Shown piece after piece: positions 12,084 to 39,170 of a stretch of DNA of 64,000 nucleotides. Within the stretch, counting starts at the first letter, position 1. Each line of letters begins with the position of its first letter. The position numbers were made by a program, and so were the translations under genes. The notes beneath the pieces are model-generated. The model ran no database searches and was not told where the DNA came from. It saw only the letters and a list, made by a program, of their open reading frames with translations. Source of the stretch: an uncultured Alphaproteobacteria bacterium (GTDB lineage Bacteria; Pseudomonadota; Alphaproteobacteria; Micavibrionales; Micavibrionaceae); NCBI GenBank assembly GCA_937934135.1, contig CALHAW010000003.1, positions 1-64,000 on the forward strand, given 5' to 3'.

Positions 12084-13244
12084 TTAGTTTTGAGGTATTT
12101 CAATAGTGACGAGCGCTTGGCACGCGATGCCTTCTTTACGGCCTGTAAAGCCTAAACCTTCGGTCGTTGTGGCCTTAATACTGATCAGCGTTTCAGGGAG
12201 TTTTAGAATCTCAGAAATACATGTTTGTATGGCGGCGCGGTGGGGGCCTATTTTAGGCGCTTCTGCCATAATGGTCACGTCAATAAATTGGAGCGCGCCA
12301 CCCGCATTTTTAAGCATCTTATGCGCTTCTTGTAGGAAAAACGCGCTATCTGCGTCTTTCCATTGCGGATCGGAAGGGGGGAAGTGCGTGCCGATATCAC
12401 CTTTGTTAATACCGCCAAGGATAGCGTCCGTAATGGCATGTAGCACGACATCTGCATCAGAATGTCCCGTGAGCGCGACATCATGTGGGATTTCAAGCCC
12501 GCCAAGCATCAATTTACGCTCGCTTGGAGTTATCTCAAAAGCATGAACGTCAAAGCCAGAGGTCGTTCTTGTTTTCAGAGTATTGGCGATAAATGTTTCG
12601 GCCATGATTAAATCCTCTTGGGTGGTGATTTTAATATTAGCGCGCGATCCCGTGATAAGGGCAACTTCATGTCCCATAGCACGCATAAGTCCCGTGTCAT
12701 CAGTAAAGCTGTCATCATCCGCGAATTTTTCATGCGCTTTAATAAGGTGCTTTAAATCAAAGGCTTGCGGTGTTTGGATAGACCATAGCGCTTCACGGTT
12801 TACAGTTTTATTGCCCCTTAATAGCGTATCGGAGACAGGGCAAGCCAGCGTCGCGGCTTGGTTCTCTTCCATAGAATCAAGTAACTTTGTGATGTCTTTA
12901 ACCGAGATGAGGGGTCTTGCGGCATCGTGGATGAGTATTATATCTCCATTTTTTACTTTAATAAAAAACTTTAAACCATTATAAATACTTGATTTTCTTG
13001 ATTTTGATCCAGTAATTGGTACATTGATATCTAAGCCCTTTACTGCTTCATCATATAGCGCCCGATGCTCTTCGTTAATTAGCACTGTAATAGACTGTAA
13101 GCCGGGCATACCAAAGAATTTTTCAATCGTATGGCGCAGGACGGTCTTACCTTGAATCTTATAATATTGTTTTGGTGTGTTATCACCAAAACGTGTGCCG
13201 CTGCCCGCGGCAGGAATCAAAAGGTGAAAGGGTTTAATTGTCAT
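12084..13244 (-). CDS. ispDF: bifunctional IspD/IspF isoprenoid enzyme
   Basis: A fused enzyme of the MEP pathway. The N-terminal half (about 1-225) is 2-C-methyl-D-erythritol 4-phosphate cytidylyltransferase, with the nucleotide loop LIPAAGSGTRFG and IHDAARPLIS. The C-terminal half (about 228-386) is 2-C-methyl-D-erythritol 2,4-cyclodiphosphate synthase, with zinc ligands in SGFDVHAFE and GHSDADVVLHAITDA and the substrate loop GDIGTHFPPSDP. The fusion is a typical alphaproteobacterial trait. It diverges from ntrY across 44 bp, leaving a short shared promoter region. Confidence 0.97.
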   Translation of the reverse strand: MTIKPFHLLIPAAGSGTRFGDNTPKQYYKIQGKTVLRHTIEKFFGMPGLQSITVLINEEHRALYDEAVKGLDINVPITGSKSRKSSIYNGLKFFIKVKNGDIILIHDAARPLISVKDITKLLDSMEENQAATLACPVSDTLLRGNKTVNREALWSIQTPQAFDLKHLIKAHEKFADDDSFTDDTGLMRAMGHEVALITGSRANIKITTQEDLIMAETFIANTLKTRTTSGFDVHAFEITPSERKLMLGGLEIPHDVALTGHSDADVVLHAITDAILGGINKGDIGTHFPPSDPQWKDADSAFFLQEAHKMLKNAGGALQFIDVTIMAEAPKIGPHRAAIQTCISEILKLPETLISIKATTTEGLGFTGRKEGIACQALVTIEIPQN

Positions 13245-13288
13245 ATTGGAATCTTGCTTTTTATTCTTAAATTGGTGATAGTCCTAAA

Positions 13289-15625
13289 ATGAATAAAGGT
13301 CAAATTGCTTCCTTATCTAAAGTCGAAACAAACGCTGATATTGGGTATAAAAAATACGGGTTTTGGCGGGGCTTTGCGGATGCGCTTTTAGGCCCTAAAA
13401 GCCGTATTAGTGGCCTGCGTCGCCGTTTTACCAACCGTAGCTGGAGTACGCGGCTTTCTTTCATTCTTATTGGCCTTGCGATTATTAGTGGTTTTGCGAC
13501 CTATGCCGCATTAACAGAGACGCCGCCCTTTGGCGATGACCCACACACAGTTATTTGGTTGTTGAATATTGATCTGGTCATTCTGCTATTCCTTGTGATT
13601 TTAATTGCGCGGCGAATTGTATCGATCTGGAGCGGGCGGCGGCGGAATATCGCAGGATCACGGCTTCATGTCCGCCTTGTGCTGACATTTAGTATCATGG
13701 CGGCTTTGCCGGCAATCATTATGGCGGTATTTTCTGCGTTCTTCTTTCATTTTGGGGTGCAAACATGGTTCAACGATACGGTGAAAACAGCGGTATATGA
13801 GTCCCAAGCCGTTGCAGAAGCGTATTTGGAAGAGCATCAACAGCTTATTAAAGCCGATATTTTAGCGATGGCAAATGATATTGATCGCCAATCCCTAAGG
13901 ACGTTGGATTCTCAAGAGGCGTATGACCGCTTATTACATACGCAAGCTTTCTTAAGAAATTTTTCTGAATCGATTGTTTTTAATTCAAATGGTCAGATTT
14001 TGGCGCGCTCTGGTTTAACCTTTACATTGACCTTTGAAACAGTGCCTGATTTTCAGTTGGATCAAGCGCGAGATGGAGAGGTCGTTCTGTTAACTAGTGA
14101 TGCGGATGATCGCGTACGCGCCCTTGTACAACTGGGAAGTGGTAATAATGATTTCTTATTTGTGGGGCGGCGTGTTGACCCTACGGTGTTGTCCTATTTG
14201 ACATCCGCTAAGGATGCCACACAACGTTATGCCACGCTTGAAGATAGTTTTTCTGGTCTTCAAGTAACTGTGACCATGATTTTCATTGTTGTGGCGTTAT
14301 TGTTATTGATGGCGGCGATGTGGGCAGGGATTGTGCTGGCACGGCAATTAGTGAGTCCCATTAGTACATTAATTTCCGTTTCTGATCGTGTACGGGCAGG
14401 GGATTTAACCGCACGTGTCCCTAAACAGGATCAAGTGGAAGAGTTTGACTACCTTGCCCAATCTTTTAATCGTATGACCAGCCAATTGGAAAGCCAACGG
14501 GATGAATTGGTTACAACGAACCGTCAATTAGACCAGCGTCGCCAATTAACCGAAACGGTTTTAAAAGGTGTGCCTGCGGGAGTGATGGGGGTTGACCAGA
14601 TTGGACAAATCTCATTCGCTAATGATGCCGCGGCGATTTTATTTGAGGCCGAAGGGAAGGTTTTGATTGATACCAATATTAGCGACCATTTGCCAGAGAT
14701 TAAAATTCTTTTGGAAGAGGCCTATAAAAATCCTGAAAAAATTGCGCAATCCGAAGTGCCGTTCACAACAAAAAACGGAAATAAACTTAGCTTCATTGTA
14801 CGTATTGCGATTGAAAATATTCAAGGGGGTAAGCAACGGGCGATTTTAACTTTCGATGATATTACGGAACTTCAATCTGCGCAACGTAAGGCTGCGTGGG
14901 CAGATGTGGCGCGGCGTATTGCGCATGAAATTAAAAATCCGCTTACGCCCATTCAGCTTTCGGCAGAGCGATTACAGCGTAAATATTTAAGCCAAATTAC
15001 TGATGATCCAGAAACATTTGAAGTTTGTACGGATACGATTATTCGCCACGTCGAAGATATTGGCCGGATGGTGAATGAATTTTCTGATTTTGCGCGGATG
15101 CCTGAATCTAAGATTCAACCAACAAAGCTAGTAAAAGAGATTCATGATCTTGTGATGTTCCAAAATGCAGCGCATCCAGAAATTGCGATTACAATTCAAG
15201 GAAACGCCGATAAAAACAAACCCGTTCCATGTGATAACCGGCAAATACGGCAGGCACTGACCAATTTAATTCAAAATGCTGTTGATTCTATTCAGTCTTA
15301 TCAAAAAGATCATATGGAACATAAGGGTAAAATTATTATTACTTTGGAAGAGGGAACTGAGATTTTTAAAATACATGTTCAAGATAATGGCTTGGGGCTT
15401 CCTGAAAATGAAGAACCTTCAAAGTTAAGTGAGCCTTATATTACGCATCGTGAAAAGGGGACGGGTTTGGGGCTGGCGATTGTAAAGAAAATCATGAGCG
15501 ACCATAATGGTGAGCTTTTGATTAACCGCCGTGACGATGCGCACAGAGGGGCGTGTATCAGCTTACTGCTTCCTGATATTGTAATAGGCGATGATGAACA
15601 TGAAAAAGAATTGAAACGCGCATGA
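13289..15625 (+). CDS. ntrY: NtrY-type membrane sensor histidine kinase
   Basis: Sensor of the NtrY/NtrX two-component pair, linked in other alphaproteobacteria to nitrogen, redox and envelope control. The 778-residue order is: three N-terminal membrane helices (about 50-155), a periplasmic loop of about 160 residues, a fourth helix (IFIVVALLLLMAAMWAGIVL), HAMP (about 350-405), a PAS domain (VLKGVPAGVMGVDQIGQISF), the HisKA box with His546 in RRIAHEIKNPLTPIQL, and the ATPase domain (NLIQNAVDSI, DNGLGLP, GTGLGLAIVKKI). All catalytic motifs are intact. Its 3' end overlaps ntrX by 4 bp. Confidence 0.95.
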   Translation: MNKGQIASLSKVETNADIGYKKYGFWRGFADALLGPKSRISGLRRRFTNRSWSTRLSFILIGLAIISGFATYAALTETPPFGDDPHTVIWLLNIDLVILLFLVILIARRIVSIWSGRRRNIAGSRLHVRLVLTFSIMAALPAIIMAVFSAFFFHFGVQTWFNDTVKTAVYESQAVAEAYLEEHQQLIKADILAMANDIDRQSLRTLDSQEAYDRLLHTQAFLRNFSESIVFNSNGQILARSGLTFTLTFETVPDFQLDQARDGEVVLLTSDADDRVRALVQLGSGNNDFLFVGRRVDPTVLSYLTSAKDATQRYATLEDSFSGLQVTVTMIFIVVALLLLMAAMWAGIVLARQLVSPISTLISVSDRVRAGDLTARVPKQDQVEEFDYLAQSFNRMTSQLESQRDELVTTNRQLDQRRQLTETVLKGVPAGVMGVDQIGQISFANDAAAILFEAEGKVLIDTNISDHLPEIKILLEEAYKNPEKIAQSEVPFTTKNGNKLSFIVRIAIENIQGGKQRAILTFDDITELQSAQRKAAWADVARRIAHEIKNPLTPIQLSAERLQRKYLSQITDDPETFEVCTDTIIRHVEDIGRMVNEFSDFARMPESKIQPTKLVKEIHDLVMFQNAAHPEIAITIQGNADKNKPVPCDNRQIRQALTNLIQNAVDSIQSYQKDHMEHKGKIIITLEEGTEIFKIHVQDNGLGLPENEEPSKLSEPYITHREKGTGLGLAIVKKIMSDHNGELLINRRDDAHRGACISLLLPDIVIGDDEHEKELKRA

Positions 15626-16338
15626 TCAGTAAAAATATAACCAATAAATCTATCTTAGTCGTTGATGACGAAGCGGATATCCGCCGCCTTATTCGTGGAA
15701 TATTGGAAGATGAAGGGTATAGCGTTATCGAAGCAGAAAATTCTAAACAGGCGGCAGAGCAATTCGAAAAAAAAAGCCCTGACCTCGCCATATTAGATAT
15801 CTGGCTTCAGGGGAGTGAAAAAGACGGGTTAGAGATTTTACAAAGCTTTAAAGAAACCAAGCCATATTTTCCTGTTTTGATGATTAGTGGACACGGCAAT
15901 ATTGAAACGGCGGTGCATGCAATTAAAAATGGAGCTTATGACTTTATTGAAAAACCGTTCAAGTCAGATCGTTTGTTATTAATGATTGCCCGCGCTTTGG
16001 AAAAGGCGGCATTGCAGAAAGAAAATGAAGATTTAAAAATCCAAGGTAATTTGACCATTTATTGCTTTATGTTGATTTTATCGTTCTTACCAGATGCAAC
16101 AGCCCGCTCTCCCGAGGTTAAAAATGATGTTTATGATGTATCTTTACGACAGGCGCGGGAAGATTTTGAACGGAAATATCTTATGGCGCAAATTCAAAAA
16201 TTTGAGGGAAACATATCAAAAACGGCGGCTTTTGTTGGGATGGAGCGTGCGGCGCTGCATCGGAAGCTGAAGTCCCTTGATATTTCGCTCAACGACGCGC
16301 AAAATAACAATAAGTCTGTAAAAAGCCAAACGGGTTAA
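15622..16338 (+). CDS. ntrX: NtrX-like response regulator lacking the sigma-54 AAA+ domain
   Basis: Cognate regulator of NtrY by position and sequence, but only 238 residues against roughly 450 for ordinary NtrX. Residues 9-125 are a complete receiver (acidic pair D15/D16, phosphoacceptor D59 in AILDIW, S89, K111). Residues 126-166 are a short linker with a hydrophobic run (LTIYCFMLILSFL, 144-156). Residues 175-218 are the NtrX Fis-type helix-turn-helix (LRQAREDFERKYL, GNISKTAAFVGMERAALHRK). The whole ATPase/sigma-54 interaction module, with Walker A and GAFTGA, is absent and the reading frame is intact. It would bind DNA but could not drive sigma-54 open-complex formation. Confidence 0.9.
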   Translation: MISKNITNKSILVVDDEADIRRLIRGILEDEGYSVIEAENSKQAAEQFEKKSPDLAILDIWLQGSEKDGLEILQSFKETKPYFPVLMISGHGNIETAVHAIKNGAYDFIEKPFKSDRLLLMIARALEKAALQKENEDLKIQGNLTIYCFMLILSFLPDATARSPEVKNDVYDVSLRQAREDFERKYLMAQIQKFEGNISKTAAFVGMERAALHRKLKSLDISLNDAQNNNKSVKSQTG

Positions 16339-39079: not shown

Positions 39080-39170
39080 GGACAGATGGCAGAGCGGTTG
39101 AATGCACCGGTCTTGAAAACCGGCATGGGTGAATAGCCCATCCAGGGTTCGAATCCCTGTCTGTCCGCCA
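39080..39170 (+). tRNA. tRNA-Ser (anticodon UGA)
   Basis: A complete class II tRNA with a long variable arm. The acceptor stem GGACAGA pairs with TCTGTCC, the discriminator is G and CCA is encoded. The D-arm is TGGCAGAGCGGTTGAATGCA, the anticodon stem-loop CCGGTCTTGAAAACCGG has anticodon TGA, the variable arm is CATGGGTGAATAGCCCATC and the T-arm is CAGGGTTCGAATCCCTG. UGA reads UCA, and also UCG/UCU by wobble depending on modification. Confidence 0.97.

Follow-up and report, generated by a model that had tools for sequence, protein, structure and literature searches.

The window, a stretch of 64,000 nucleotides from the genome of an uncultured alphaproteobacterium (family Micavibrionaceae), contains ntrY, which encodes a sensor histidine kinase of 778 amino acids (13289–15625, + strand). 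The Pfam domains NtrY_N, HAMP, PAS, HisKA and HATPase_c are all found in this protein, and the gene is complete by domain content. It is followed by a short form of ntrX (15622–16338, + strand), an open reading frame without internal stop which encodes 238 amino acids and whose ATG overlaps the stop codon of ntrY as ATGA (15622–15625), and then, downstream, by trkA. In alphaproteobacteria, ntrBC is commonly located upstream of ntrY; no ntrBC is found there at the window locus, where a divergent gene encodes an IspD-IspF fusion (12084–13289). The sole tRNA of the window, a tRNA-Ser with a TGA anticodon (39080–39170), is also its sole Rfam match at the gathering score.

In the 238-residue protein, Pfam detects a receiver (Response_reg, residues 11–122, E 3.2e-30) and a helix-turn-helix (HTH_8, residues 179–217, E 8e-11); Sigma54_activat is not detected, and nothing is found between the two domains. 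The receiver with its C-terminal helix, as delimited by Pfam, alignment and AlphaFold2 (residues ~10–140; 15649–16041, + strand), includes D15, D16, D59, S89 and K111, and the four residues D15, D16, D59 and K111 are invariant in an alignment of 35 NtrX rows. The NtrX-type Fis helix-turn-helix (HTH), delimited by Pfam and alignment (residues ~174–218; 16141–16275, + strand), has an alanine at position 210. The two are joined by a linker (residues ~141–169, including LTIYCFMLILSFL; 16042–16128, + strand) that replaces the AAA+ module, has low confidence in the AlphaFold2 model and shows no recognisable AAA+ remnant. The GAFTGA, Walker A and Walker B motifs expected of a sigma-54 activator are missing together with the module.

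The AlphaFold2 model, based on a 35-row alignment (pTM 0.63), shows a long C-terminal helix of the receiver (residues 115–141) and the HTH helices from 175 to 218. Both domains mostly have a pLDDT above 90; the region ~141–169 is poorly determined, and the blocks of the linker have values of 46–54. The top structural matches of the model are chains of Brucella NtrX (5m7n, 5m7o, 5m7p, 4d6x, 4d6y); in the matches restricted to the receiver, the window protein is 56–60% identical to Brucella NtrX.

The best NCBIfam match of the protein is the NtrX model (NF051870), with 273.6 bits in two stretches for a cut-off of 600, compared to 611.1 bits for the full-length NtrX of a congener. The protein remains below the cut-off because the defining module is missing. 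It shares with alphaproteobacterial NtrX the place after ntrY, as in the relatives compared, and the same Fis-type HTH, and its receiver and HTH are nearest to those of NtrX, but it lacks the central AAA+ module which these proteins have. The open reading frame, the Pfam domains and the key residues thus agree with the preliminary description of the locus, which had recognised a 238-residue receiver joined to an NtrX-type HTH, without AAA+, beside ntrY.

The AAA+ module in NtrX of related genomes

The relatives used for comparison are species representatives, many of them with draft assemblies. The NtrX frames of eight of the nine congeners are 473–500 residues long; in the ninth (G002), ntrX is split across two contig ends with overlapping sequence. 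In the order, a receiver match at E 1e-30 was obtained in 131 of 142 genomes, the window genome included, and the remaining 11 have no match. NtrX loci were taken in from 129 of the other 130 matching genomes. The one left out (G069) has a frame of 143 amino acids which starts 7 bases from a contig end and is probably cut there. The 129 loci consist of 123 complete frames (119 retained by a motif filter, and four that fall outside this filter or whose C-terminal motif varies) and six frames truncated at a contig end or at an N gap. The complete frames have 434–621 amino acids, stop to stop. A profile for the AAA+ region of NtrX matches all 129 relatives, including those that are cut, with a weakest E value of 5.1e-43; strong matches of its members are expected by construction, since the profile was made from 119 of these sequences, but the ten unused ones match too. 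The same profile does not match the window protein.

The class-wide search gave a match in 323 of 385 genomes. Among the matches listed, the only frames shorter than 434 amino acids, besides that of the window, are those of G255 and G431, which are at contig ends, and of G482, which has a frame break; AAA+ sequence is present in all three. In a scan of named genomes (80 loci), the frames free of contig-end cuts have at least 454 amino acids. Several candidates for a short NtrX were rejected: those of G002, G017, G045, G077, G137, G255 and G431 are explained by contig ends and that of G018 by an N gap, and three loci with a match through residues 11–203 (L090 and L106, both Kordiimonas, and L099) have frames of 463–467 amino acids. 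In the distant alphaproteobacterium G482, ntrX (L186, contig C112) lies in two overlapping frames with the break inside the AAA+ region, which is either real or a sequencing error.

When the AAA+ part of a congener NtrX was compared to the window genome (43 contigs, completeness 97.19%, contamination 0.32%), only FlbD was found, and the missing piece was not found elsewhere in this genome. Architecture and orthology are read directly from the sequence, and relative to the relatives read the absence of AAA+ in the window ntrX is a loss, private to the window genome within the sampled set. The preliminary description had proposed an in-frame loss of AAA+ from an NtrX orthologue, which is supported by the presence of AAA+ sequence in all 129 NtrX loci read from the rest of the order. 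It had also taken a full-length gene in relatives as evidence to the contrary, and had asked whether close relatives share the short form. None do (eight congeners have the full-length gene and the ninth is split at contig ends), but this does not contradict a loss: it confines the loss to this genome among those sampled. No report of an NtrX without AAA+ was found in the open-licence literature, as far as the available parts of these texts extend.

Linker, constraint and alternative explanations

The linker contains a run of 13 uncharged, hydrophobic residues, LTIYCFMLILSFL. In 11 relatives, the sequence that precedes the AAA+ module is charged and the sequence that follows it is acidic; by eye, GNLTIYCFMLILSFLPDATARSPE fits neither, and LTIYCFMLILSFL is unlike both flanks. 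The LP of the window linker and what comes after it as far as LRQARE may nevertheless align with the LPPE...LREARE end of the relatives. In the search for an AAA+ remnant, 14.9% of 1000 shuffles did as well as the best ungapped segment (PFIAL, in another frame) and 7.4% as well as the best collinear pair, with the reverse strand nearly as high; a gapped profile search of the three forward frames gave no AAA+ match. An alignment that tolerates frameshifts was overfitted and is disregarded here. The proposal that the hydrophobic run is a relic of the junction, made in the preliminary description, therefore finds no support in these tests. An origin of the linker as a copy from elsewhere in the genome was also rejected: besides itself, it has only chance-level matches (E 0.45 or weaker).

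The short form is known from one draft assembly of 43 contigs, and the assemblies of relatives do break inside ntrX (at contig ends in G002, G017, G045, G077 and G137, at an N gap in G018, and probably at a contig end in G069). An assembly artefact, in which about 700 bases were dropped or mis-joined inside a gene that is in fact full length, nevertheless appears unlikely. The reading frame is maintained, with an intact domain on either side of the linker, in an assembly of high completeness and low contamination (values above), and this assembly contains the linker only once, which argues against a join to another assembled place. Moreover, a simple collapse should leave collinear flanks, whereas about 25 codons of the linker resemble, by eye, neither flank of the relatives. 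This lack of recognisable flanks speaks mildly for a real rearrangement that is not very recent. That a real deletion left a dying remnant without function seems more doubtful still. In the HTH tree, which has 51 columns and no support values, the longest branch is that of the window protein (0.62), the branch of NtrY is longer than that of TrkA (0.44 vs 0.25), and the alanine at position 210 is found where serine is present in 98 of 99 distinct full-length NtrX (set L008–L116) and in 111 of the 115 sequences matched among 119 NtrX of the order. The window genome, of 1.72 Mb, is also smaller than those of eight of the nine congeners and has 11 receiver matches, compared to 10–23. The long HTH branch and the alanine at 210 allow either a changed DNA preference or weaker constraint. 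However, the gene has neither stop nor frameshift, the signature residues of the receiver are kept and the kinase is intact. The receiver is 66–73% identical to those of the eight aligned congeners, slightly below the 68–89% observed among the congeners themselves, and its branch length (0.32) is close to that of G007 (0.31), whose gene is full length; that of G009 is 0.35. As for the hydrophobic run, it could make the regulator membrane-associated, so that it would work close to the membrane kinase NtrY, but this is very improbable: 13 residues are short for a membrane-spanning helix, the confidence of AlphaFold2 is low there, and the run is absent in the 11 relatives compared.

The gene is probably the orthologous ntrX of the ntrY-ntrX pair, shortened in this lineage by an in-frame deletion of the entire AAA+ module, which leaves a receiver, a short flexible linker and the NtrX HTH. 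What counts against this explanation is that it depends on a single draft assembly, that the hydrophobic run is unexplained, and that the long HTH branch and the alanine at 210 would also fit relaxed constraint. In addition, the trees disagree: the window groups with G004–G007 in those of NtrY and TrkA, but lies near G035, G010 or G003 in those of the receiver and the HTH, which have few columns and no support values.

The sigma-54 contact loop and the Walker motifs in related NtrX

The 109 loci L008–L116 give 99 distinct full-length NtrX, of which 98 have the Walker A pattern and none has GAFTGA. GAFTGA is likewise absent from all 129 NtrX of the order relatives; one of 119 NtrX of the order has an FTGA-like stretch without GAFTGA. 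The FlbD of the window genome, used as positive control, has the motif. The same distribution is described for Caulobacter, in the available part of the source (PMC10274813): NtrC and NtrX are without GAFTGA, and FlbD and TacA have it. As judged from these sequences, the NtrX that lost the module was not a sigma-54 activator beforehand, and the idea of the preliminary description that a sigma-54 activator had been converted into a plain DNA-binding regulator is not supported on that point.

The window genome has rpoN, as do all ten genomes of the genus. One of them (G007) has two rpoN matches (C111, C89), compared to one in each of the nine others, which may reflect a duplication or a mixed bin. 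FlbD is the only strong sigma-54 AAA+ match in the window genome; it scores 711.5 bits with the FlbD model, just below the cut-off of 750, and its gene is located between a FHIPEP-family gene and a MotA/ExbB-family gene. The weaker Sigma54_activat matches (E 1.6e-5 or weaker) were rejected as activators, and correspond to two Clp-type, one Mg-chelatase-type and one MgsA-type ATPase. FlbD and NtrX are both present in the nine congeners, five of which have a third activator-like AAA+ frame. A search for rpoN and for a separate AAA+ activator, as suggested in the preliminary description, thus finds both, the second in the form of a GAFTGA-bearing FlbD.

In an alignment anchored on FlbD, the Asp-Glu pair of Walker B is kept in 102 of the 123 complete NtrX of the order and missing in 21 (the six cut frames are left out of this count). 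Two of the 21 also lack the Walker A Lys, and two (G095 and G104) have Glu for Asp, perhaps a mild change. The loss of Walker B requires at least eight changes on a quick tree, which was calculated without the motif columns and in which two long rows (G064 and G036) meet. In a sister family (f7: L201–L207 and L194, from G126, G127, G052, G128, G049, G043, G047 and G055), Walker B is broken in all eight members read; two also have a changed Walker A Lys, and the receiver and an HTH are kept.

FlbD was sought in the 21 genomes in which the NtrX pair is missing, and a match was obtained in 20. When G108 (cut before the motif) and G127 (a match 38% identical, not clearly FlbD, with the pair present) are left out, FlbD keeps Asp-Glu in 18 of 18 readable cases and the exact GAFTGA in 17 of them. 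The FlbD of G059 (L293) is without the exact GAFTGA and has intact Walker motifs. Since FlbD keeps Walker B in the same genomes, the erosion affects NtrX specifically, and does not result from a general decay of AAA+ proteins or from sequence quality. Since the pair is intact in 102 of 123 NtrX, most of the order still seems to make use of the ATPase. Moreover, in the part of the source available, ATP binding and hydrolysis are expected to contribute to the function of the GAFTGA-less NtrC of Caulobacter (PMC10274813), which counts against dispensability of the ATPase in general.

From the sequences compared, the window gene looks like the endpoint of the erosion of the NtrX ATPase in the order. 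The balance tips slightly towards a model in which this ATPase is dispensable in several lineages of the order and was lost stepwise: no sigma-54 loop first, then repeated loss of Walker B, and the whole domain gone in the lineage of the window. This would have produced a receiver-HTH regulator from a protein of the NtrC family, rpoN and a true sigma-54 activator staying in the genome.

Proposed mechanism and comparison with known regulators

With the phosphorylation-site residues and an intact kinase gene at hand, the window protein is most likely a phosphorylatable receiver-HTH regulator which acts at promoters that do not depend on sigma-54. NtrY would phosphorylate D59. Structures of NtrX receivers show that the receiver pairs differ between states, and phosphorylation would change the dimerisation of the receiver, and so the binding of DNA by the HTH dimer. 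The paired HTH domains would bind DNA close to promoters that ordinary sigma factors recognise, and would repress or activate promoters of RNA polymerase with a non-sigma-54 factor, without ATP hydrolysis. In the absence of AAA+, neither ring assembly nor an ATP-dependent step is possible.

The proposed binding at promoters of ordinary sigma factors is based on the relatives without GAFTGA and on the precedent of Caulobacter NtrC, which acts at sigma-70 promoters according to the part of the source available (PMC10274813). As described there, the GAFTGA-less NtrC of Caulobacter and Rhodobacter are, like the window protein, regulators of the NtrC family without the sigma-54 contact loop, and act at sigma-70 promoters, but they keep AAA+, whose ATPase is expected to matter in Caulobacter, whereas the window protein has no AAA+.

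The loss of AAA+ in the window NtrX suggests that this genome has no further need of the ATPase. If the proposed explanation is true, a natural NtrX without AAA+, beside relatives with an eroded ATPase, would indicate that NtrX can fulfil some function with receiver and HTH alone, and the role of AAA+ in GAFTGA-less NtrX could be tested by removal of the domain.

The redox regulators ActR/PrrA/RegA (NF033791) have a receiver, a short linker and a Fis-type HTH, without ATPase, and this layout defines the family. The comparison to PrrA/RegA that was made in the preliminary description therefore holds for the layout, and the window protein is, as far as its sequence tells, an NtrX by descent and PrrA/RegA-like by layout. 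If so, it would be a concrete case of PrrA-type receiver-HTH regulators arising from proteins of the NtrC family. It differs from ActR/PrrA/RegA by its partner, NtrY, and by its origin through domain loss from NtrX, and the model of that family matches only its receiver, with 80.2 bits for a cut-off of 250.
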